A stretch of 28,640 nucleotides of DNA, taken from positions 1 through 28,640 of IMG/VR virus record IMGVR_UViG_3300045918_000450; one strand, written 5' to 3'. A program made the translations under genes and the position numbers. Shown piece by piece: positions 3,368 through 27,513 of this stretch (position 1 is the first letter of the stretch; the number at the start of each line of letters is the position of its first letter). Origin of the DNA: a virus. The notes beneath the pieces were generated by a model, which saw only the letters and a list, made by a program, of their open reading frames with translations, was not told the DNA's origin and ran no database searches.

Positions 3368-6300
3368 TTTACCGTCCTAAAATTGCGGTTCTCTTTTGCC
3401 AAGAATTTGGTCAGATCATCCTTATGAATAAACTCGCCACCTTTGGTATTAATCACCACCGTACCACCTGAGGCTTGTTTTTGCTGTTGTTGGGCTTGGA
3501 TTAACGATTGTTGTGTCGCTAAGGCACTCGCAGCGGTCATTGCTAAACCAGCACCTGTATTACTGTTACTTGTCGCTTGCTCAGGTAAACCAACATTACC
3601 AATCCCGCCATTGGCAAAGAACTCACGCATCGGTGCGGCAATGGTCGCGGGTAAGATGGTTTCGTTTTTGTGGACTAAATTTAAGCGGTCGTTAGGCACA
3701 TCCCATTCGCCACCCGCCGACGATGAAATCATGCCACCAAACGCCATCACCCCAGCAAACGCAACCGCCGCTGCAATGGGAGCAATAACAGGCCCTACAT
3801 ACGGAATCCCGATCATTGCATCATAAGCACCCGCCGCTGCGTCCGCTGCTTTAGTGGTAATCTTGCTGGTCGCAGCGCTTGCCTCAACGGCTTTACTTTC
3901 AGCCGCTGCCACACCTTCCGCTGCAACTCGCGCCTGTGTCCCTACAATCGTAGCCCCTGTTTGCGTCGCTTCGCTAGTCGCCTTAATCGCACCTTTGGTG
4001 GTTTCCTTCGCGCCAAAACCCATCAACTCCCATAACCAATGCGCTGCCGAATCAATCGCCATATTCGCCAGTGACTGCGTATAGCTCAACACAATCGACT
4101 GAAACGCATTCTTCATGCCCTGTTTCAGCGTAGTCGTACCTTGCAAAATGCCTTGAATCGTTGAACCGAAGGCAGATTTAATCGGTGCAAACGCAGAGGT
4201 AAACATCGACTGATTATCAAGAGCCACTTTATGATTAATGGCTTTTAAATCTTGCGCGTGCTTTAGTCCTAGCTCTTTTTCCTTGCTTAAGGCTTTGGCT
4301 TTGCCAACCGTATCATCACTTTCTAATAAAGCAGATCTATCGCGCAGTGCTTTTAAGGCAATTTGATAGCGTTGGTTCTCAAAGTCTTTTTGCTTAGCTA
4401 ATAACTGAGCGTTGGTAATCGTCCCTATTGCTAGCTGTTGCTGAGCATCATCCTCTTGCATTTGCACTAGCGTGTTATCCATGGCTTCTTTTGAGCTAAG
4501 CTCTTCTTCCGCTAATGCCTTAGCCTCTGCTTTGGCTTTTTTGTCCTCATCCTGTTTCTTTTTAGCAGTTTCTCTGAGAATTTGCAGGTCTAAATCAGCG
4601 GATTTTTTCTTAAGTTCAGCAAGGGTTTTATCATCGCCTTTGTAATTAGCAATCACTGAATCCCAATAAGCTTTTTCTTGCTCTTTAGAAAATTCCTGCA
4701 ATAAATTCTTGCGTTCAAATGCCAGTTTTTGGGCAGTTAAATCGGCTTCAAAACGGCTCATGTCCGATACGTCACCACTTTTACCGCCTGGCGAATGACC
4801 GCCTTTACCTTTACCGCTACCGCCCGTTGGCGCATCAGGAATCGATTTTGAACCGCCTGTGCTACGTTTTTCAGGGCTACCTTTGCCAGTTGATTTAGAG
4901 CCACGACCACGCGCTATTTCGTCCTTAATCGTTGAGACAAACGCATTCTTACGTTCCTTAACTACATTGCTAACAGACTCTGCATACAGACCCACTTCTT
5001 TAGCTGCATTACCAACATAATCGGTTTTCATGCCCGAACGAAACGCTTCACCTATTGCCCCCTCTGAGGCTTGCCTACGCGCTTTATTTTCTGACTGATT
5101 GACATTAAGTTGCGAAACAAATGCCCCGCCTGAAAAGTCACCACCCAATGCGGCTTTAATCGAATTACCCGCCGCAACCGCTAAACTGACAGCATGATTC
5201 AAACTCATGCTAATTTTGTCAACGATTTGCGCCATAATCACGCCAATCGCTGAACTTAAGCCAACAAATGCACCTATCCCTGCATTAACAAAGTCTTTAA
5301 CCGTACCTAATGCGCTGTTTAAGGACTCTTTAAAGCTTTCCCACGTTTTGTCATTAACACCAATTAACGCTTTAAGATAGCCTTCAAAATCACTAAAAAA
5401 ACCAGCAACAAAATCGCCAAAATCACTAAAAATACCCGTGATAATCCGCCAGACTGCGCTTAGAATTTCTGATAGCGTGGTATTTTGGTCACCAAACTGA
5501 ATCACATTGTCTTTAACTTCGGCAAACTTAACGGCTAAAAATGCCAGTCCTGAAATCACCAGACCGATAGGACCGCCCACTAAACGCAGTAATACGCTAC
5601 CCAATGGAGCAAACACCGCTGAAAACTGCCCAACAAAAGTAGTCGCTAAAGCAAACCTGACACCAATAGCCGTTAATCCTGCCAATAACATCGCAATAGG
5701 ATTAGTTGCAATAGTCGTGATGACAGACCCTAATGTCCCTAAAACCGACACCAAGCCATTAAAACCAACTGTTAAAACCCCCGCCGCTAACACTGCCCGA
5801 CTAATCGCACCGCTAAAAGTCGTTGTTAAGACACCTGCAATCCCTGTAAAACCCGCTCGCATCACGGCAAAAACACTACCACCAGCCGCTGCTGCAATAA
5901 TGCGCATAGCCGATGAAAACGCCGCCGCAATCCCTGGCATTAAAGTAGTAATAGCGATATGCGTTAACCGAAACAAGCCACCTAGCGGAGCAATAATTGC
6001 CGCTATCCGAATAAAGCCAGCCAAATTAGGCGAATGCGCACTAATGCTAGTGATAGCGACTGTTAAACTTTTTAGCCCATCGATAACAAAAGTAATCGCG
6101 GGTAAAAATATTGCCGAGGTGGTAATAGCAAACACATCAAACGCACTTTTTAGTCGCTGTATTGCTGCGCTAACGGTTCTTTCACGCTCAGCAAAGGTAG
6201 CCGACATACTACCTGTAAAGATTTCATCCTTGCTTGCCAGCCCTGCTAAACGGTGATATTCATCTAAAGAGTTAATCAAATCGCCAATAGCAGCCGTATC

Positions 6301-7946: not shown

Positions 7947-8024
7947 GTAGGTCGGGTTAGCGATAGCGTAACCCGACAATGCTATAGATTAATGTCGGGT
8001 TACGGCAAGCCTAACCCGACCTAC
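7947..8024. repeat. Long palindromic element, GTAGG(T/C)(T/C)GGGTTA type
   Basis: A 78-base element with outer ends GTAGGTCGGGTTA and TAACCCGACCTAC as inverted copies, and an inner pair (GTAACCCGACA and TGTCGGGTTAC). The same family occurs at 9869, 14389 and 17895. It fills the gap between the chaperone and tail tube genes. Confidence 0.8.
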
Positions 8025-8065: not shown

Positions 8066-8092
8066 CCGTGGGGGTGTTTCTATTTAAGGTAA

Positions 8093-8123
8093 ACCTGCGA
8101 GTTTTTTAAAACCTCGCAGCTCT
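8093..8123. repeat. Palindromic element, CCTGCGAGG type (copy 1)
   Basis: Inverted arms ACCTGCGAG and CTCGCAGCT around an AT-rich centre. This is a slightly decayed copy of the window's commonest palindrome, found also at 13331, 17853, 22181, 24778, 25925, 27048 and 27482. It lies just after the stop of the tail tube gene. Confidence 0.8.
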
Positions 8124-10690: not shown

Positions 10691-10762
10691 ATAATTTTTG
10701 GTAAAAATTCACAAAGTTACTTAAACTATTGAGGTGTTTAGTCTTATTTAACTAAGCACCTT
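10691..10762 (+). promoter_or_regulatory. CRISPR leader of array B
   Basis: AT-rich stretch before the first repeat of array B. It holds the box CTTAAACTATTGAGGTGT at 10720-10737, which differs by two bases from the box in leaders A and C and stands 43 nt before the first repeat. Read on the other strand the box contains CTCAATAGTTTA, close to the IHF consensus WATCAANNNNTTR. Confidence 0.7.
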
Positions 10763-10850
10763 GTTTACTGCCGCATAGGCAGCTTAGAAAACGATAATCA
10801 ATCACCGCACCACCATAGATATATTCACTGCCGAACAGGCAGCTTAATGA
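10763..10850 (+). CRISPR. Mini CRISPR array B, type I-F-like, two repeats and one spacer
   Basis: Repeat 1 at 10763-10790 and repeat 2 at 10823-10850, both 28 nt, flank one 32-nt spacer at 10791-10822. Both repeats keep the I-F hairpin, CTGCC and GGCAG as a 5-base stem, with loops GCATA and GAACA. The second repeat is degenerate at its end (TTAATGA instead of TTAGAAA), as usual for a terminal repeat. The spacer matches the phage's own major capsid gene end, 10917-10948, at 25 of 32 positions. A palindrome (GACTGCCAGTCC / GGACTGGCAGTC) follows the last repeat at once. No cas genes are near. Confidence 0.88.
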
Positions 10851-10879
10851 CTGCCAGTCCTTTAAGGACTGGCAGTCAT
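10847..10879. repeat. Palindrome capping array B
   Basis: Inverted arms ATGACTGCCAGTCCTT and AAGGACTGGCAGTCAT with a single central base, overlapping the last bases of the final repeat. It could end the array transcript or serve as an antisense hairpin, but no clear T-run follows. It fills the space to the capsid gene stop at 10890. Confidence 0.8.
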
Positions 10880-10889
10880 GCTTACGTTA

Positions 10890-12911
10890 TTAAGGAACAA
10901 TCCCAGCGTAAAAGCCTCTGAAGTCAATCACCGCACCGCCATAGATGTGACGGATTTTGTAAATAATTTGGTCATTGCTAAACAAACTACCCTGAGTAGG
11001 TAAATCTTGAACAAACAGCTCAGGCTCTTCCGTGCCGTTATAAAAACCCAACTCAATCAGCGGTATTTCCATCTTGTCGGCGGTGGCAAACCAGTTATTA
11101 GTATCAGACCAATAATCAACAACGTGGACTTTGGGTTTCCGTGACTGCACAAACGATTCGTCTAAATTGGTGTTACGAACAAACAAATCAAACGCGGTTT
11201 CTTCCAATTCCGCAGGAACATACAAATGACGCAATACCAAACCTAGTTTTTTAGCACTGTTCAATTCTACTTGTTTCTTAACGGCTAACCGCGCTGCTGA
11301 AAAAGCCGCTGCACTGAGTGCTGCCGTGCCTAAATTGCCATGGATAGCATTAAACAACGTCACCGCGTCATACAGAGTCGGATTAGTGGCAATAAAATCC
11401 ATCACGAACTCATACAAGGTGCGTTTTGCCGCCACTGCCAACCGTTGTGGGACTTTACGAATCGCACCCACATCATCATTAGCAATGGTTTCAAGACTGA
11501 TGGTTTCTTTACCACCGCGTTTAGTGATGGCGTAAGTCGCTTTTTCATCACTGGGCGACGTGAGCGCGTTATAAGCACCGTTTTCAGCCACAGCAGGCAG
11601 GTTGCCATAACCACCCATACGAGTGCGTTCTTGCGTACGAAAGTTAGAGATAGGAACAACATCGACTAAATCCTGAAAATCGTTATAATTTTCCAGCGCG
11701 GCATAATCACGCACCATTGCCCGTGTAATCGAGTTACCCAAAATATTGCCAAAGGTAGCCGCTGAAATCGCTTCACGGAAATGGGCATCACTCCCCAACG
11801 CTTCACGCAAACGCTGTTCATTACAGTTTTGAATCAGACCCGTCACCCCTGTATCGCCTGTGACTTCGACATAACATTCACGAAATGATTTAGCCCGTTT
11901 AGCAGGATTAAAAAAATCATCAAACATGGTGGTGATTTTGTCAGCGCGGTCTGAACCCATTTCAATAACCACGTCACCCAAGCCTTTAACATGACCTGAT
12001 TCTGTCAGTTTTGATAGCATAGTACGCTCGGTATCAATCGCTTCGCGCACCGCTTTCATCGTTAAACTATCGGTAGCTTTAAACTGTTTTAACAGTTTTT
12101 CAGTCACAGGGGCAGGTAGGTTTGCTGCTGCTAATATCGAACTATGCTCTCGCGCTTCCCAATAACGCGCTCTTTTTCCGTCGTCAAGCGTTTCGTTATA
12201 AGCTGCTAACACCGCGACTGGGTCAGTGGTATCCAGACCTTTAGGCATATCCCCGTCATTGCCCACCTGAATAAATGCCAACATTAATTGTAATAAGTCC
12301 ATAGTCCCACCTTGATTTTGTGATTGTAGTACGGGTTGATTAGCATCAACCGCCTCGATTATTAGAGTACAAACCCTAGGTTTGTCTGAATCCGAAGGCA
12401 TCACTGCCTCGATTAAATTGATAAGCTGCCCACCCGCCCCTGGTTCGATAATCAAATCGACCGAATGCACTTTGACAAACTTAGTGGCTTCGCGAAGTTT
12501 GCCGCGCATTTGCGTTAGCCCATCGGCATCAATCGAAAAGCCGAATAGCTCGGTCATCCCGTTGTTGTAGGCTTCTTTGAGTTTGGCAACCACTTCACCT
12601 GCCGAAGCCAATAAAGTCAGTGTGGCTTGGATTTCACCACTGTCTTGACCATTGCCTTCAATAAAGCGCGGGTCTGATAATTGACCAATGAGCTGACTAA
12701 ATGATTTACCACCGCCGTGAATATGTTCCGCATCGGATTTAGAAAATACCCGCACCTTGTCAAACAACGGTACGGCTTCACGCAACACCCGATCAGGGTA
12801 AAAGTTGTTATTACCCGACTGACCCGCGCGAATAACCCGAATCAGATACTTCAAGCCCGTTTTACCGTCGCTATCGGCAACGGCTTCAATAAATGAATTA
12901 GACGTTGGCAT
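10890..12911 (-). CDS. Fused prohead protease / major capsid protein
   Basis: A 673-residue protein from an ATG at 12911 (MPTSNSFIEAVADSDGK); the longer reading from 12968 overlaps the gene before it. Residues 1 to about 180 look like a phage prohead protease: FYPDRVLREAVPLFDKVRVF, EHIHGGGKSFSQLIGQLSDPRF, then a long helical segment. From about residue 320 the sequence has the Mu-like major head pattern: EQRLREALGSDAHFREAISAATFGNILGNSITRAMVRDY and the end IYGGAVIDFRGFYAGIVP. In Mu, protease and capsid are separate genes; here they are joined, as in several Mu-like siphoviruses, so one protein cleaves itself during head maturation. A palindrome at 12366-12388 is translated in frame in the linker. 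The last codons are the target matched by the array B spacer. Confidence 0.88.
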   Translation of the reverse strand: MPTSNSFIEAVADSDGKTGLKYLIRVIRAGQSGNNNFYPDRVLREAVPLFDKVRVFSKSDAEHIHGGGKSFSQLIGQLSDPRFIEGNGQDSGEIQATLTLLASAGEVVAKLKEAYNNGMTELFGFSIDADGLTQMRGKLREATKFVKVHSVDLIIEPGAGGQLINLIEAVMPSDSDKPRVCTLIIEAVDANQPVLQSQNQGGTMDLLQLMLAFIQVGNDGDMPKGLDTTDPVAVLAAYNETLDDGKRARYWEAREHSSILAAANLPAPVTEKLLKQFKATDSLTMKAVREAIDTERTMLSKLTESGHVKGLGDVVIEMGSDRADKITTMFDDFFNPAKRAKSFRECYVEVTGDTGVTGLIQNCNEQRLREALGSDAHFREAISAATFGNILGNSITRAMVRDYAALENYNDFQDLVDVVPISNFRTQERTRMGGYGNLPAVAENGAYNALTSPSDEKATYAITKRGGKETISLETIANDDVGAIRKVPQRLAVAAKRTLYEFVMDFIATNPTLYDAVTLFNAIHGNLGTAALSAAAFSAARLAVKKQVELNSAKKLGLVLRHLYVPAELEETAFDLFVRNTNLDESFVQSRKPKVHVVDYWSDTNNWFATADKMEIPLIELGFYNGTEEPELFVQDLPTQGSLFSNDQIIYKIRHIYGGAVIDFRGFYAGIVP
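10917..10948 (-). other. Imperfect self-match of array B spacer in the capsid gene
   Basis: 32 bases in the C-terminal codons of the capsid gene match spacer B1 at 25 positions. Mismatches at spacer positions 1, 3, 4, 5, 7, 22 and 31; five lie in the seed. The two bases before the match on the spacer-like strand are CC (10915-10916), the standard I-F PAM. Of the changes, all but one pair are synonymous; one changes Phe to Tyr. Confidence 0.85.
12366..12388. repeat. Short palindrome translated in frame, ACAAACCCTAGGTTTGT
   Basis: Perfect short palindrome ACAAACCTAGGTTTGT-like, centred on CCCTAGG, lying inside the fused protease/capsid gene in the linker region (residues KPRVCTLIIEAV). A close copy, with GGAGTC added at its left, lies in the intergenic region 13370-13394. 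Confidence 0.7.
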
Positions 12912-13086: not shown

Positions 13087-13396
13087 GACAGTTCCGAAGT
13101 AAGGACAAGTGGCAAAAGAATAAATCAGCAAGCACGGTAATACACCTAGGAATGCAGTCCTATGGTATTTTTAGAGGGAGGGCGTTCAAACCAAGCTTTG
13201 AACTTCAAATAAAGCCTTTAACTAACGATTAAAGGAAGTTTAACGGGGGTTTAACGGGGGTAAAAACAAAAATCTATGCCAGTGTAGCGCGTTGTCTTTA
13301 AAAATGCCTAAAAATAAAAATTATCAGCCAGACCTGCGAGGTTTTTAAAACCTCGCAGGTCTACGCGACTGGAGTCCAAACCCTAGGTTTGTACGA
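13087..13396. other. Gene-free stretch with four palindromic elements
   Basis: 310 bases without a credible gene. In order: an imperfect inverted repeat near 13144-13168 (ACCTAGGA ... TCCTATGGT) followed by TATTTTTA; GTTCAAACCAAGCTTTGAAC near 13173; an AT-rich tract with CTTTAA/TTAAAGG arms and GGGGG runs; a CCTGCGAGG element at 13331-13362; and GGAGTCCAAACCCTAGGTTTGTA at 13370. I see no RNA gene. It separates the gpG-like gene from the capsid block. Confidence 0.7.
13331..13362. repeat. Palindromic element, CCTGCGAGG type (copy 2)
   Basis: Perfect arms GACCTGCGAGGTTTT and AAAACCTCGCAGGTC around a short centre; the reference copy for this family in the window. Confidence 0.9.
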
Positions 13397-13993: not shown

Positions 13994-14278
13994 ATGAATG
14001 CCGTTGTACAACCCCAAAAACTAGAAACTGTTTTTGACCATAACATCACCAAAGATGAACTAAGAAAATTATTGTACGGCGATACTGAATCGCTTGAAGA
14101 ATATACTCAATTTCTTGACCAAGATGGTGCGTATGCAGATATAGCTCAACTACTTCGTTCACGCGGCGATAATGATAAAGCCTTAAAATATATCAGCATG
14201 ATAACGGATAACGAACTGAGAACACAGTATATGACAACCCCATGCGTTATAGCGGGGCGTTCTTTTGCTGAACAATAA
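13994..14278 (+). CDS. Plus-strand small protein, possible moron, unknown function
   Basis: A 94-residue protein starting MNAVVQPQKLETVFDHNITK, the only credible coding gene on the plus strand. It has its own promoter-like sequence and is mostly helical with a balanced, soluble composition (SLEEYTQFLDQDGAYADIAQLLRSRGDNDKALKYISMITDNELR). Tandem helices of this type occur in small regulatory or adaptor proteins. I recognise no family. Opposite orientation inside the late operon, flanked by repeats, is the classic placing of a lysogenic-expression gene (moron) that may act on the host or on other phages. Confidence 0.6.
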   Translation: MNAVVQPQKLETVFDHNITKDELRKLLYGDTESLEEYTQFLDQDGAYADIAQLLRSRGDNDKALKYISMITDNELRTQYMTTPCVIAGRSFAEQ

Positions 14279-16057: not shown

Positions 16058-17743
16058 CTACTGTGCATTGGCAAAGCCCAACAAATCAGCGGCAAAGGTA
16101 GCGCGTTCTAACACGGTTCTAAATTCAGTGGTATCCGACTCACCAAACAACACCGCTAATCTATCCGCTAAGTCTTCAAAACTTTTTGCTGATTTAATAG
16201 CGTTTTCAATGTCGGTTTCACTGACAGGTGAACCTAAGGTAGCCAGTACCTCATCGGCTAGGTTTTCAATAATCTGTTGGTCAGCGGTAAAAACAGGCAC
16301 GGCTTTATTAGCCACCGCTTCGGTTATCTTGGTGGGTTGCTGTCCAGTCGTCTGGACAGCTTTACTGGAGTCCAAGCCTTGGCTTAGCTGTTCAGTAATC
16401 GCCGCTAGTTCCTTTTCGGCATCAAACTTTACGCCCAACTGCCCCGCTATCGATTCAATCACCTGTATGCCCGTCTTAATCGACAGCAACTTAGCTGTCA
16501 CTGCCAAACTCACCGCTTGGGTGACTTGCTGTAACGCCGCTGCATAACGGGTGGTATCTTTAGCAATCATCTCTGGAAACTGTACCGCAAAACCATAAAC
16601 CGCTTCGCTTAAATCAGGCTCTTTGCCGTTATGTGCCAGCTCATATTGCCGTATCACATAGCGTGCCATTTCCGATAGCATATAGCCGATAAATGCCTGT
16701 CTTAACGACATCATCTTAAACGTAGGATCGCCCATACTTTCGCCTGTGGAGCGATTGACATCACCACCGCCACCAAACCAATGTTCGGGAATGGTTGCTC
16801 CACCTAATACATGATTACGAAACAACTTCGCGCTAGTTTCTGAATCGCTGGATTCAAGACTAGGGCTTTCGGCTTTCCATGTTTCCGCGTCATTATGCAC
16901 CCGCACAGAACCGGGTTTAGGGGCGCGTATCGATTTGGCTTTTTGTTTAACTTCTTCTTCATTCGCACCTATTAGCGTCACATCCCACATAAAGGCGCGT
17001 AAAAACTGTACCCTGTCCAACTCACCAAATAGAAACTGATCGTAAGAATCCAACCAGTCAATTTGACTGAGTAAATCCGACCGCCCCCGCCGTCCACTGG
17101 CAAGGTCGTTAATCTTGAAATAGAAACAATCGCCATCGGTAAAGCTATCCCGAATAGCGATAGTACGTTGGGTAAACATCTCCTCTTCAATGCCATTAAC
17201 AATAACTTTAAAACGCTTAGCCACACCTTTTTTAGTGATATTGGTAATGATACCTATCGGTTGTTCAGCATTGTCAGGGTCTACCACCACGGTCGCAATC
17301 AAGCACGGATCAAGATAACCCAAGCGCACCGCACCGCTGTACTCATTAACAAAAGTGGGATAACACTGTTCACCATACATCGACAACTCACGGACTTTTT
17401 TAACCAGCTTAATGTCCATATTATTAACAGGATGTTGCCAAAAATCCGTTAATAGTTTCTGAATAATCTCATCATTGGCTTTAAGTTTAACGCCATCGGC
17501 TAAAATATAGGCTATTGGCAATTCAATCAGGCGATTAGCCAGTGTGTTCGATTCCCACAGATACGCCGACAAATTTTGCATACGGCGTTGGTTCATCGGT
17601 AGCAAATCACGCAATGCGTCACCGCTCAACGGGCGGAAATCTGCATCATCTGCATCAACAGTTTGCCCAACTGCTTCACGCATCGGCTGTGGTAAGGGGT
17701 CGTTTTTAATAGCTTCTATAAACCAATTCAGTAGATTTTTCAT
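16058..17743 (-). CDS. Portal protein
   Basis: A 561-residue protein from an ATG at 17743 (MKNLLNWFIEAIKNDPLPQP); a TTG start 30 bases upstream is less likely. Typical phage portal features: MNQRRMQNLSAYLWESNTLANRLIELPIAYILADG near the N-terminus, VKKVRELSMYGEQCYPTFVNEYSGAVRLGYLDP in the core, a wing region with SDLLSQIDWLDSYDQFLFGELDRVQFLRAF, and GGATIPEHWFGGGGDVNRST near the crown. Helical C-terminal tail. Its position between terminase and head morphogenesis fits the Mu gene-29 place, though I would not equate it with DUF935. CRISPR-like locus C lies directly upstream of the start. A palindrome (16369-16391) is translated in frame as LSQGLDSSKAVQ. Confidence 0.88.
   Translation of the reverse strand: MKNLLNWFIEAIKNDPLPQPMREAVGQTVDADDADFRPLSGDALRDLLPMNQRRMQNLSAYLWESNTLANRLIELPIAYILADGVKLKANDEIIQKLLTDFWQHPVNNMDIKLVKKVRELSMYGEQCYPTFVNEYSGAVRLGYLDPCLIATVVVDPDNAEQPIGIITNITKKGVAKRFKVIVNGIEEEMFTQRTIAIRDSFTDGDCFYFKINDLASGRRGRSDLLSQIDWLDSYDQFLFGELDRVQFLRAFMWDVTLIGANEEEVKQKAKSIRAPKPGSVRVHNDAETWKAESPSLESSDSETSAKLFRNHVLGGATIPEHWFGGGGDVNRSTGESMGDPTFKMMSLRQAFIGYMLSEMARYVIRQYELAHNGKEPDLSEAVYGFAVQFPEMIAKDTTRYAAALQQVTQAVSLAVTAKLLSIKTGIQVIESIAGQLGVKFDAEKELAAITEQLSQGLDSSKAVQTTGQQPTKITEAVANKAVPVFTADQQIIENLADEVLATLGSPVSETDIENAIKSAKSFEDLADRLAVLFGESDTTEFRTVLERATFAADLLGFANAQ
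16369..16391. repeat. Short palindrome translated in frame, GGAGTCCAAGCCTTGGCTT
   Basis: Palindromic core CCAAGCCTTGG in the portal C-terminal tail, read as residues QGLDSS. Related to 12366, 13370, 25318 and 27716; the GGAGTCCAA half is shared. Confidence 0.65.
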
Positions 17744-17824
17744 AACTAAATACTTAACAATTAATAAAATCAATAGAAATGTCTTAAACTATTGATGCGT
17801 ATATTTTTCTTGATTTAGCGCGTT
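17744..17824 (+). promoter_or_regulatory. CRISPR leader of locus C
   Basis: AT-rich leader with the box CTTAAACTATTGATGCGT at 17783-17800, identical to leader A and standing 42 nt before the repeat. Upstream, AATAAAATCAATA (about 17763-17775) is shared with leader A. The other strand of the box reads GCATCAATAGTTTAAG, close to an IHF site. Confidence 0.7.
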
Positions 17825-17852
17825 GTTCACTGCCGCACAGGTAGCTTATAAA
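17825..17852 (+). CRISPR. CRISPR locus C: leader plus one repeat, no spacer
   Basis: A single 28-nt repeat with the I-F pattern; one stem base differs (GGTAG, giving a G-U pair). Its end reads CTTATAAA, the same as the last repeat of array A, and the same palindrome (GACCTG...CAGGTCT) follows directly. This looks like an array that lost its spacers by recombination between first and last repeat, or one that never gained any. Confidence 0.75.
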
Positions 17853-17884
17853 GACCTGAGAGGTTTTAAAAACCTCGCAGGTCT
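17853..17884. repeat. Palindromic element, CCTGCGAGG type (copy 3)
   Basis: Starts at the first base after the CRISPR repeat of locus C. One base is changed in the left arm (GACCTGAGAGG). It may end a short transcript. Confidence 0.8.
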
Positions 17885-17894
17885 ACTTAAGTGT

Positions 17895-17972
17895 GTAGGT
17901 CGGGTTAGGCTTGCCGTAACCCGACATTAATCTACGGTCATTGTTGGGTTACGCTACGCTAACCCAACCTAC
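17895..17972. repeat. Long palindromic element, GTAGGTCGGGTTA type (copy)
   Basis: Left arm GTAGGTCGGGTTAGGC, right end GCTAACCCAACCTAC; the two halves now differ slightly (CGGG vs TGGG), so it may be a hybrid of two elements. Confidence 0.75.
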
Positions 17973-19531: not shown

Positions 19532-19559
19532 AACCTACTGCCGCATAGGCAGCTTTTAT
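19532..19559 (+). repeat. Solo CRISPR-like repeat D
   Basis: The core ACTGCCGCATAGGCAGCTT (19 bases) is identical to the first repeat of array B, with intact stem CTGCC/GGCAG; the flanks have decayed. No leader or second repeat is visible. A palindrome, GGAGTTAAAAACTCATGAGTTTTGA, follows immediately (19562), as in the other three loci. Confidence 0.65.
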
Positions 19560-19561
19560 CT

Positions 19562-19588
19562 GGAGTTAAAAACTCATGAGTTTTGATT
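19562..19588. repeat. Palindromic element, AAAACTCATGAGTTTT type
   Basis: Inverted AAAACTCATGAGTTTT after repeat D. Related elements at 20984-21013 and 21418-21440. Confidence 0.7.
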
Positions 19589-21426: not shown

Positions 21427-21847
21427 GAGTTTTGACTCCTTCCACTGCCTTAACCAACGCAGTAATCACCCCGCGTAGTTCAAACGGTGTGCAAAATGTC
21501 AGGTTCGCTTTTTTGTACATCCGTTTTGCAATCGCATGAGCATAAGACCACGGCTTTTTCTGTACTGTCAGCAAGGCTTCAATCTTTTGTAACTGCCCAT
21601 TCTGTGCGGTGTTGTGCGGCTTGCCTTCGTGCAGCGTTTTACCTAACTGTGACTGCAAGTAAGCAATCACAGTTAGCCGTTGCGCTCTATTCAGTTTTGC
21701 CGAAGAATCCAGCCCAGTTTGATTAACTAACATGACTCGATAAGTTTCATCATCCAGCGTTAAATTCTTTTTCAACACATGAATCTTAGCGAGTTCTTTG
21801 TTTCTGTACGGATCGGGATTACCGTTAATCACTTTCTTGATTGCCAT
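21416..21847 (-). CDS. gemA: GemA-like regulatory protein (DUF1018, Mu gp16-like)
   Basis: A 143-residue protein with the DUF1018 pattern: RNKELAKIHVLKKNLTLDDETYRVMLVNQTGLDSSAKLNRAQRLTVIAYLQSQLG, then a second domain with ALLTVQKKPWSYAHAIAKRMYKK...FCTPFELRGVITAL. In Mu, gp16/GemA modulates host functions including DNA supercoiling control. It overlaps the Mor start, suggesting coupling. No ribosome site is visible before the ATG at 21847, which lies next to the leader of CRISPR array A. Its bases 21617-21648 match spacer A3 imperfectly. Confidence 0.88.
   Translation of the reverse strand: MAIKKVINGNPDPYRNKELAKIHVLKKNLTLDDETYRVMLVNQTGLDSSAKLNRAQRLTVIAYLQSQLGKTLHEGKPHNTAQNGQLQKIEALLTVQKKPWSYAHAIAKRMYKKANLTFCTPFELRGVITALVKAVEGVKTHEF
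21617..21648 (-). other. Imperfect self-match of array A spacer 3 in gemA
   Basis: Spacer A3 matches 28 of 32 bases on the coding strand, residues QLGKTLHEGKP. Mismatches at spacer positions 2, 3, 5 and 15; three in the seed. The two bases before the match read AC, not the CC expected for a I-F PAM. Spacer codons read Gln-Leu-Gly-Lys-Thr-Met, so only Leu to Met changes the protein. Confidence 0.9.
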
Positions 21848-21972
21848 TATATTTTTACATTAAAAAGTAGTAATAAAATCAATAAGTTGCTTAAGCGATT
21901 TTTTCATTGAAAAAAAACAGGAAAAATAGCTTAAACTATTGATGCGTTTAATCTTTTTCGATTAAGCGTCGC
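21848..21972 (+). promoter_or_regulatory. CRISPR leader of array A
   Basis: A 125-base AT-rich leader. It has the box CTTAAACTATTGATGCGT at 21930-21947, 43 nt before the first repeat and identical to leader C; reversed, it reads CATCAATAGTTTA, near the IHF consensus. A second site, AATCAATAAGTTG at 21877-21889, fits the IHF consensus WATCAANNNNTTR fully. Two IHF sites, near and far, are known for I-F leaders that support spacer uptake. A possible promoter is TTGAAA (21916) with TAAACT about 17-19 bases later. Confidence 0.7.
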
Positions 21973-22180
21973 GTTCACTGCCGCACAGGCAGCTTAGAAA
22001 TACTCGCGAATATTGCAGAGCCAATACGCTTGGTTCACTGCCGCACAGGCAGCTTAGAAAGCCAACGCTATCTTACAAGCCGCAATTACGGCGTTCACTG
22101 CCGCACAGGCAGCTTAGAAAAACTGGGTAAAACGATGCACGAAGGCAAGCCGGTTCACTGCCGCACAGGCAGCTTATAAA
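21973..22180 (+). CRISPR. Mini CRISPR array A, type I-F, four repeats and three spacers
   Basis: Repeats at 21973-22000, 22033-22060, 22093-22120 and 22153-22180, each 28 nt, with a strict 60-base period; spacers at 22001-22032, 22061-22092 and 22121-22152, each 32 nt. Repeats 1-3 are identical, start with GTTCACTGCCGC and end with GGCAGCTTAGAAA, which is the I-F class pattern; the last repeat ends CTTATAAA. The stem CTGCC/GGCAG with a five-base loop is the Cas6f (Csy4) substrate. 28/32 lengths are exactly those of I-F. It reads on the plus strand, opposite to the phage genes, between gemA and the DUF3164 gene. No cas gene in the window, so processing must rely on the host. Confidence 0.97.
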
Positions 22181-22212
22181 GACCTGCGAGGTTTTAAAAA
22201 CCTCGCAGGTCT
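22181..22212. repeat. Palindromic element, CCTGCGAGG type (copy 4), capping array A
   Basis: Begins at the first base after the last repeat of array A. Perfect arms GACCTGCGAGGTTTT / AAACCTCGCAGGTC, followed by TCTTTGTTAT on the plus strand, which could make it a weak terminator for the array transcript. Confidence 0.85.
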
Positions 22213-24760: not shown

Positions 24761-25304
24761 GACCCACCTCCTGATCTAAGACCTGCGAGGTTTTTAAAAC
24801 CTCGCAGGTCTTGTTATCAGATAAGGTTTTATTCAATGACGGATTCACCCGCATTGCCGCCATCGCCGCCTCATGACATGAGCTGGTAATAAGCTGTATA
24901 GCGTCGTTATGCTGTTGGATATGCGCTAAAAACGCCCCCGTCGATGAAAAAACCCAGCTTGAACAAACCTGTTTATCATAAATACCTGCAGTTTTTGCCT
25001 TAGCTTTTGAGCCATAGCATTTTTCCCATGACTTTAGTTCTTTAGCAGAAAAAATAGACTTGAGTTTCCAACAATAGAACTTCCGACAAATCTCAGACAT
25101 TTGCTCAAGGTCTGTTTCCCGACCATAAAATAACCAATCACCTCTAAACAGGCTATTGACATAAACGGCAATTTTGACCTGCATACCGACTTGTACAGTA
25201 GCCGTCGTGATGTAATAGCCATCAATCAAAAAATAAGACCGATGACCTAGCTGTGGTAAGTCTTTTTTAAGCTCATCACGCTGTGCTTTGGTTAGCTTAG
25301 CCAT
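24753..25304 (-). CDS. Unrecognised early protein, 183 aa, ending in a translated palindrome
   Basis: From the ATG at 25304, MAKLTKAQRDELKKDLPQLGHRSYFLIDGYYI, followed by a beta segment (TTATVQVGMQVKIAVYVNSLFRGDWLFYG) and a helical, cysteine-containing part (EICRKFYCWKLKSIFSAKELKSWEKCYGSK). The last 25 residues include KTCEVLKTSQVLDQ, the translation of a CCTGCGAGG palindrome (24778-24812). It opens into the 137-aa gene with a short overlap. I recognise no family. Its position in the early block, before a replicative helicase, could point to a replication or anti-host role. Confidence 0.75.
   Translation of the reverse strand: MAKLTKAQRDELKKDLPQLGHRSYFLIDGYYITTATVQVGMQVKIAVYVNSLFRGDWLFYGRETDLEQMSEICRKFYCWKLKSIFSAKELKSWEKCYGSKAKAKTAGIYDKQVCSSWVFSSTGAFLAHIQQHNDAIQLITSSCHEAAMAAMRVNPSLNKTLSDNKTCEVLKTSQVLDQEVGHG
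24778..24812. repeat. Palindromic element, CCTGCGAGG type (copy 5), translated in frame
   Basis: AAGACCTGCGAGGTTTTTAA and its inverse, inside the 3' end of the 183-aa gene, adding the residues TCEVLKTSQVL. Confidence 0.9.
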
Positions 25305-25877: not shown

Positions 25878-26295
25878 CACACACCTCCGCTGCCCGTAAC
25901 TCATCACCCACATCACAGCGATTCAAGACCTGCGAGGTTTTTAAAACCTCGCAGCTCTCAACAACAAACGGCAACAAGGTTTTGCTATTGGCATCAAACA
26001 CCCCATCTTTACGCATAATCGGATTCTTAGCCCCTAGATCATTCACCAGCCGATACTGATACACGCCGTTGCTAGTCGGCTTACCATCATCTAACCGCTC
26101 ACGCGACAATACCCCTACCCGTGTTAAAAAGGTCAAATACTGCCCTAAATTCCGATCTGCGTGTTTGCGTGAGCCGTCATTCAATACCATCAACAAATCC
26201 GCTAAGGTCACGGTTTTATTCTTGCGAATAATCCACCACGCTCTAGACCGCAATCCATAACTGCGTTGTCGTTTCATACCACGTTTACCCGCCAT
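25864..26295 (-). CDS. Winged-helix-like early protein
   Basis: 143 residues from the ATG at 26295 (MAGKRGMKRQRSYGLRSRAWWIIRKNKTVTLADLLMVLNDGSRKHADRNLGQYLTFLTRVGVLSRERLD). The pattern RSRAWWIIR....TLADLL...NDGS....N...YL..L...GVL, followed by 'GVYQYRLVNDLGAKNPIMRKDGVFDAN', is the winged-helix family that stands directly after the B ATPase in many Mu-like phages. The C-terminal 30 residues contain CEVLKTSQVL, a translated CCTGCGAGG palindrome (25925-25957). Probably a DNA-binding regulator. Confidence 0.8.
   Translation of the reverse strand: MAGKRGMKRQRSYGLRSRAWWIIRKNKTVTLADLLMVLNDGSRKHADRNLGQYLTFLTRVGVLSRERLDDGKPTSNGVYQYRLVNDLGAKNPIMRKDGVFDANSKTLLPFVVESCEVLKTSQVLNRCDVGDELRAAEVCDESA
25925..25957. 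repeat. Palindromic element, CCTGCGAGG type (copy 6), translated in frame
   Basis: Inside the 3' end of the winged-helix gene, adding SCEVLKTSQVLN, the same peptide as in the 183-aa protein. Confidence 0.9.
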
Positions 26296-27022: not shown

Positions 27023-27047
27023 GATTAAATTCCTACTGTTTTGTGAA

Positions 27048-27079
27048 GACCTGCGAGGTTTTAAAAACCTCGCTGGTCT
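27048..27079. repeat. Palindromic element, CCTGCGAGG type (copy 7)
   Basis: In the 178-base gap between the 82-aa gene and B. One base differs in the right arm (CGCTGG). Confidence 0.85.
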
Positions 27080-27449: not shown

Positions 27450-27481
27450 ACCTCACCCCTCATTAAATTAACTACCCCCAA

Positions 27482-27513
27482 GACCTGCGAGGTTTTAAAA
27501 ACCGCGTAGATCT
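27482..27513. repeat. Palindromic element, CCTGCGAGG type (copy 8)
   Basis: A decayed copy (right arm ACCGCGTAGATCT) directly after the transposase stop at 27517. Confidence 0.8.

Follow-up and report, generated by a model that had tools for sequence, protein, structure and literature searches.

Locus C, a single type I-F CRISPR repeat with its own leader in the genome of a Mu-like phage, is on balance best viewed as a CRISPR mini-array that has collapsed and partly decayed. This reading is probable because, in a near-identical relative (contig L090), another array of the same phage, locus B, has lost its only spacer. An earlier note on this DNA had proposed that C is either a collapsed array or a fresh landing site for spacers. 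The first proposal is supported by analogy with the zero-spacer allele of B, although no allele of C with spacers occurs in the data.

CRISPR-like loci in a Mu-like phage

The window (the whole stretch of DNA analysed, a virus record of 28,640 bases) corresponds to a B3-like, Mu-like phage. Its Mu-type gene set (GemA, Mor, gp27, MuF-like, DUF3164, portal, terminase and transposition proteins) is shared with Pseudomonas phage B3, and the TerL proteins of the two phages are 69% identical. Structural and early genes lie on the minus strand and every CRISPR-like locus on the plus strand. An ORF of 94 codons (13994-14278) is also found on the plus strand, opposite to the surrounding genes, and has no PADLOC match. 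Pfam and PADLOC scans of the main window proteins identified no cas genes (the record may be a fragment), and the window is in this respect a virus genome with CRISPR repeats but without cas genes among the proteins scanned. It includes array A (four repeats, three spacers), array B (two repeats, one spacer), locus C (one repeat) and locus D (a bare hairpin remnant). Six copies of the CRISPR direct repeat family RF01317 exceed the Rfam gathering score: four in array A, one in B (10763-10790) and one at C. The second repeat of B (10823-10850) is clearly recognizable, although it has diverged further. The type I-F label used here for RF01317 repeats derives from the repeat sequence. The features are as follows.

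10691-10762, plus strand: leader B, 72 bp.
10763-10850, plus strand: array B, two repeats and one spacer (10791-10822), Rfam match for the first repeat.
17743-17824, plus strand: leader C, 82 bp from the portal start codon to the repeat, without 38 bp of leader A (alignment to leader A).
17762-17775, plus strand: 14-base word TAATAAAATCAATA common to leaders A and C (shared-word comparison).
17783-17800, plus strand: 18-base leader box, whose minus strand holds the IHF-type core ATCAATAGTTTA at -40 to -29 from the repeat.
17825-17852, plus strand: solitary type I-F repeat of locus C, GTTCACTGCCGCACAGGTAGCTTATAAA (Rfam match and fold).
17852-17884, no strand: palindrome after the C repeat, a dispersed element (eight copies in the window) and putative terminator.
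19536-19555, plus strand: locus D, a leaderless 20-nt repeat remnant between terS and terL, identical to part of the first repeat of B.
21848-21972, plus strand: leader A, 125 bp, with both IHF-type sites (motif scan).
21973-22180, plus strand: array A, four repeats and three spacers of 32 nt (Rfam match).
22180-22212, no strand: palindrome after array A.

The single 28-nt I-F repeat reported earlier at C is confirmed at 17825-17852, where it matches RF01317 over 28 nt (38.4 bits, E 1.4e-5). It also has the expected end, CTTATAAA, the same as in the terminal repeat of array A. The two repeats differ by one C-to-T change, which converts a G-C pair into a G-U wobble within the stem of the RNA. 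The C hairpin still folds (-6.6 versus -8.6 kcal/mol) and its C6-G20 base pair is intact. Together with the palindrome that follows it, the repeat is 97% identical to its counterpart at A across 60 nt. Mini-arrays have at least one spacer between repeats, as do A and B, while C has one repeat. C is intergenic, lying between portal and terL, and is distant from other repeats, the nearest being remnant D at 1.7 kb, then A at 4.1 kb. It thus combines two of the properties by which solitary repeats are recognized, an intergenic position apart from other repeats and an intact C6-G20 pair. A palindrome (19569-19586) also follows the hairpin of locus D.

Leader of locus C

The 18-base box CTTAAACTATTGATGCGT is, as the earlier note had stated, identical in C (17783-17800) and A (21930-21947); when up to three mismatches are allowed, there are three matches where chance would give 0.02. 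The upstream sequence that it had described as common to both leaders proves to be the 14-base word TAATAAAATCAATA (17762-17775 and 21871-21884), and none of 500 shuffles yielded a shared word of at least 13 bases. With a score of 52 (shuffle maximum 30), the two leaders are homologous. Leader A also resembles that of the related contig L096 (score 99, shuffle maximum 31), both having the longer form. The 14-base word and the box are separated by 45 bp in A and by 7 bp in C, from which 38 bp are therefore missing. As L096 shares the longer form of A, it is the leader of C, and not that of A, that has changed.

This deletion affects the IHF-type sites. The proximal core ATCAATAGTTTA matches the IHF core ATCAANNNNTTR, a motif that is not rare (eight in the window). 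Leader A carries a second core at -95 to -84, where the 14-base word includes the distal site ATCAATAAGTTG; in C only the first half of this site remains. The proximal site is therefore intact in C and the distal one destroyed, while A retains both. Adaptation-competent type I-F leaders generally require both IHF-type sites, and C does not have such a full leader.

The box-to-repeat linkers of A and C differ at 10 of 25 positions, against 1 of 46 for box plus repeat (p 6e-5). Changes private to C show the same tendency (4 of 25 in the linker and 1 of 46 in box plus repeat, p 0.05), a pattern that points, tentatively, to constraint or gene conversion and not to decay alone. The earlier description of C as array A with the spacer part removed is consequently not exact: 38 bp have gone from the leader, 10 of 25 linker positions differ, and there is one change in the repeat and one in the palindrome. 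The leader deletion leads us to reject a simple loss of spacers from A as a full account of C.

The same deletion bears on the proposal of a fresh landing site, according to which C would be a naive acceptor, a leader and one repeat maintained so that host Cas1-Cas2/3 can insert spacers. A leader with a single repeat does work as an I-F acceptor in Acinetobacter (PMC9602844), collapsed arrays of Legionella can repopulate (PMC8047081) and the proximal IHF-type site of C is intact. However, the 38 bp missing from C include the distal IHF-type site, a spacer-bearing version of C was not found, and the 82 bp leader is close to the lengths that failed or nearly failed in the one I-F system tested, that of Acinetobacter, where leaders of 60 bp gave no acquisition, those of 80 bp almost none and those of at least 100 bp high rates (PMC9602844). 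The proposal is thereby weakened and we consider it improbable; by removing the distal site, the deletion would probably have made C a poor spacer acceptor.

Palindrome and surrounding dispersed repeats

The same palindrome as at A directly follows the C repeat (17852-17884), in agreement with the earlier note, and differs from it by one base. The A-C similarity ends after the palindrome, with no further flank in common, which indicates that leader, repeat and palindrome form one module. This common module, together with the leader and repeat found in L096 at another junction, supports the suggestion that such modules move or duplicate inside the phage. An A-like module of leader, terminal repeat and palindrome was probably copied to the portal-terminase junction.

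The palindrome is not in itself a CRISPR-specific part of the module. Most of its eight copies in the window adjoin no repeat, the other AGACCTGCGAGG...CCTCGCAGGTCT copies being located at 8090-8123, 13330-13362, 24779-24811, 25926-25958, 27047-27079 and 27481-27513. Some of the dispersed copies overlap ORFs, and one copy is also present in the related phage L103. Different hairpins occupy the same position after the repeats in B (about 10850-10880) and in L096, and a hairpin after the last repeat seems to be general to these arrays. At C, the palindrome probably serves as a hairpin or terminator between the locus and the convergent terL operon. A scan for T-run terminators found none at C or A.

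Dispersed repeats fill the region downstream of C (17895-17972 and beyond). Members of other intergenic dispersed families include a 40-nt sequence present as exact inverted copies at 7985-8024 and 17895-17934, 9.9 kb apart. The abundance of such repeats downstream of C and the eight copies of the palindrome would fit a different origin, in which C is an inert repeat fragment that arrived with dispersed palindromes in repeat-rich intergenic DNA and was never an array. Against this, the homology to A spans leader, repeat and palindrome in order and includes the terminal-repeat polymorphism; the arrival of a lone repeat would leave the leader unexplained, which makes an inert fragment very unlikely.

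Zero-spacer allele of locus B

An array collapse within the same phage lineage is illustrated by contig L090, which is 99.7% and 99.5% identical to the window on the two sides of locus B. A 60 bp segment, equivalent to one repeat and one spacer, is absent, leaving no spacer and one repeat. This repeat, R0 (GTTTACTGCCGCATAGGCAGCTTAATGA), consists of the 5' part of the first repeat of B (R1) and the 3' part of the second (R2). Judging from its sequence, such a hybrid is the expected one-step product of recombination between the two repeats of B. Contig L088 (metagenome 3300045993; metagenome labels are taken from contig names) carries the one-spacer form of B.

An assembly collapse or artefact in L090 is unlikely, R1 and R2 sharing only 10 contiguous bases. 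We also reject, on repeat polymorphisms, a state of B preceding spacer acquisition: R0 differs from the window B repeats at 3 and 4 positions, whereas under canonical adaptation both of these would be copies of R0, so that seven extra changes would be needed. The difference between the two alleles may alternatively reflect a one-step gain of the spacer in the window through recombination with another array.

Collapse to the terminal repeat is known for I-F arrays (reviewed in PMC8047081). In Legionella they collapse by repeat recombination and can then repopulate (PMC8047081), in which case the new repeats would carry the terminal-repeat polymorphism. This polymorphism is absent from the other repeats of array A, which implies that A has not collapsed since its terminal repeat changed. 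No further alleles of locus A were found.

Distribution of locus C among relatives

The earlier note had suggested comparing the portal-terminase junction in relatives for versions with spacers or without the module. The second kind was found: in four relatives (L092-L095, 71-86% portal identity) other DNA lies directly upstream of the portal gene and there is no repeat. The first kind, a spacer-bearing version of C, was not found there. The leader and repeat module also occurs in contig L096, as an array at a different junction that lies upstream of the capsid gene. Among 40 related phage records, only the L093/L096 record has the repeat.

The only other contig that spans C, L089, is 100% identical to the window and may come from the same population; C itself accordingly shows no variation. 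This contig terminates (L089 1-30) within the first repeat of array A, at window position 21996, suggestive of an assembly break at this point. The leader-plus-repeat pattern was not found in the genome contigs collection, nor was similar leader-repeat DNA found in the public phage and plasmid collections.

Possible history and role of locus C

The sequence of C is expected to be the same whether a former array has collapsed there or no spacer was ever present. Under the collapse that we favour, any spacers that C once had would have been lost by recombination between its first and last repeats, the product of such an event being visible in locus B of L090. Loci A to D resemble consecutive steps by which such arrays arise and disappear. 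Since these small I-F arrays possess leaders but no recognizable cas genes, they would have to borrow the Cas proteins of a host I-F system. If transcribed, C would yield only a leader RNA ending in a Cas6f-type hairpin, with no guide. Such an RNA would be at most a weak decoy resembling an RNA anti-CRISPR (Racr), and otherwise C would be a relic.

A stronger version of this role, which we regard as rather unlikely, makes C a selected Racr whose leader-repeat RNA is bound by Cas6f and Cas7f and titrates Cascade away from host I-F immunity. C has the published properties of solitary repeats, with the C6-G20 pair of the hairpin kept, and its box and repeat are better conserved than its linker. 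RacrIF1 is itself a solitary I-F repeat of a phage, with Cas7f coating its 5' flank (PMC10651486), and the leader-repeat RNA of C would resemble it. RacrIF1 is strongly expressed and inhibitory (PMC10651486). Against such a role, a simple sigma-70 scan detected no consensus promoter within 250 bp upstream of C, although it likewise detected none for array A. Moreover, a strong inhibitor would disarm the spacer arrays of the phage itself, which need a working host I-F system, and C is absent from the portal-terminase junction of close relatives.

Comparison with known systems

Like RacrIF1 (PMC10651486), locus C consists of one I-F repeat hairpin located between genes of a phage. It differs in that its derivation from one of the phage's own spacer-array modules is evident; C is known here from its sequence. 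It is also similar to the collapsed I-F arrays of Legionella pneumophila (PMC8047081), reduced to leader and terminal repeat, but those are chromosomal or plasmid-borne in a bacterium with its own I-F systems, whereas C lies in a phage genome in which no cas genes were found. The portogloboviruses SPV1 and SPV2 of Sulfolobales (Medvedeva 2019, PMC6858448) likewise possess short arrays with leaders and no cas genes; here the carrier is a Mu-like bacteriophage and the repeats are of type I-F. Virus-borne mini-CRISPR arrays are known from bacteriophages too. These phage mini-arrays are stated to lack leaders, and stand-alone repeats are leaderless (PMC6858448), in contrast to the leaders with IHF-type sites that precede both arrays and a solitary repeat here. 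The zero-spacer allele is a further difference from the virus-borne mini-arrays of that report. As for phage B3, no leader-repeat sequence like that of the window phage was found in the public phage collection.

Phage mini-arrays and solitary repeats are treated as two kinds of element, the former exploiting and the latter blocking host CRISPR. Here both forms occur in one phage and with one leader family, and in the sister contig an array has become a leader with a single repeat by apparently one deletion. Should collapse of mini-arrays be a common source of solitary repeats, this would provide an origin for at least some Racr candidates, and not every solitary repeat would be an anti-CRISPR. 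The leaders of these bacteriophage mini-arrays also make host-driven spacer gain testable.

Spacer targets

For spacer B1, matches are found at the 3' end of the capsid gene of L092 (1 mismatch), L093/L096 (3) and L112 (4). All have a CC PAM, and those in L092 and L093 also a perfect seed. The B1-like copy of the phage itself has the PAM but 5 of 8 seed positions are mismatched. The match of spacer A3 lies in gemA of the related phage L103; it includes 5 mismatches, none of them in the seed, next to a CC PAM. The phage's own gemA lacks the CC PAM and has 3 seed mismatches. Both B1 and A3 therefore match structural or early genes of related Mu-like phages and not the carrier, as do the mini-array spacers of SPV1 and SPV2, which match close relatives and not the carrier copy (PMC6858448). 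As far as these sequence matches go, the arrays fit the pattern described for virus-borne mini-arrays engaged in interviral conflict (PMC6858448, PMC11656645). In L107 there is a match to spacer X2 of L096, with a CC PAM and a perfect seed but an apparent 1-base indel. No target was identified for spacers A1 and A2, whose best matches (10 mismatches) are not better than those of shuffled spacers.

On the maps of their own carriers, the spacer matches are located in the gene adjoining the array: B1 at 10917-10948 (66 bp away), A3 at 21617-21648 (324 bp) and L096 X1 at 4838-4869 (172 bp, 6 mismatches). Such a position for three of three spacers has a chance probability of about 7e-6 in a 37-kb genome, a value to be read in light of the loci having been fetched around genes. 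As targets adjoin the arrays and the carrier copies are mismatched, the mini-arrays might be seen as RNA-guided analogues of intronless homing elements, a speculative and doubtful idea, with A active, B (including its zero-spacer allele) losing its spacer, C collapsed and D a remnant. Cutting a co-infecting relative at the target in the array-adjacent gene could then favour copying of the carrier segment together with the array. L090, which has lost B1, and L092, whose capsid gene matches B1 with 1 mismatch, both come from one metagenome.
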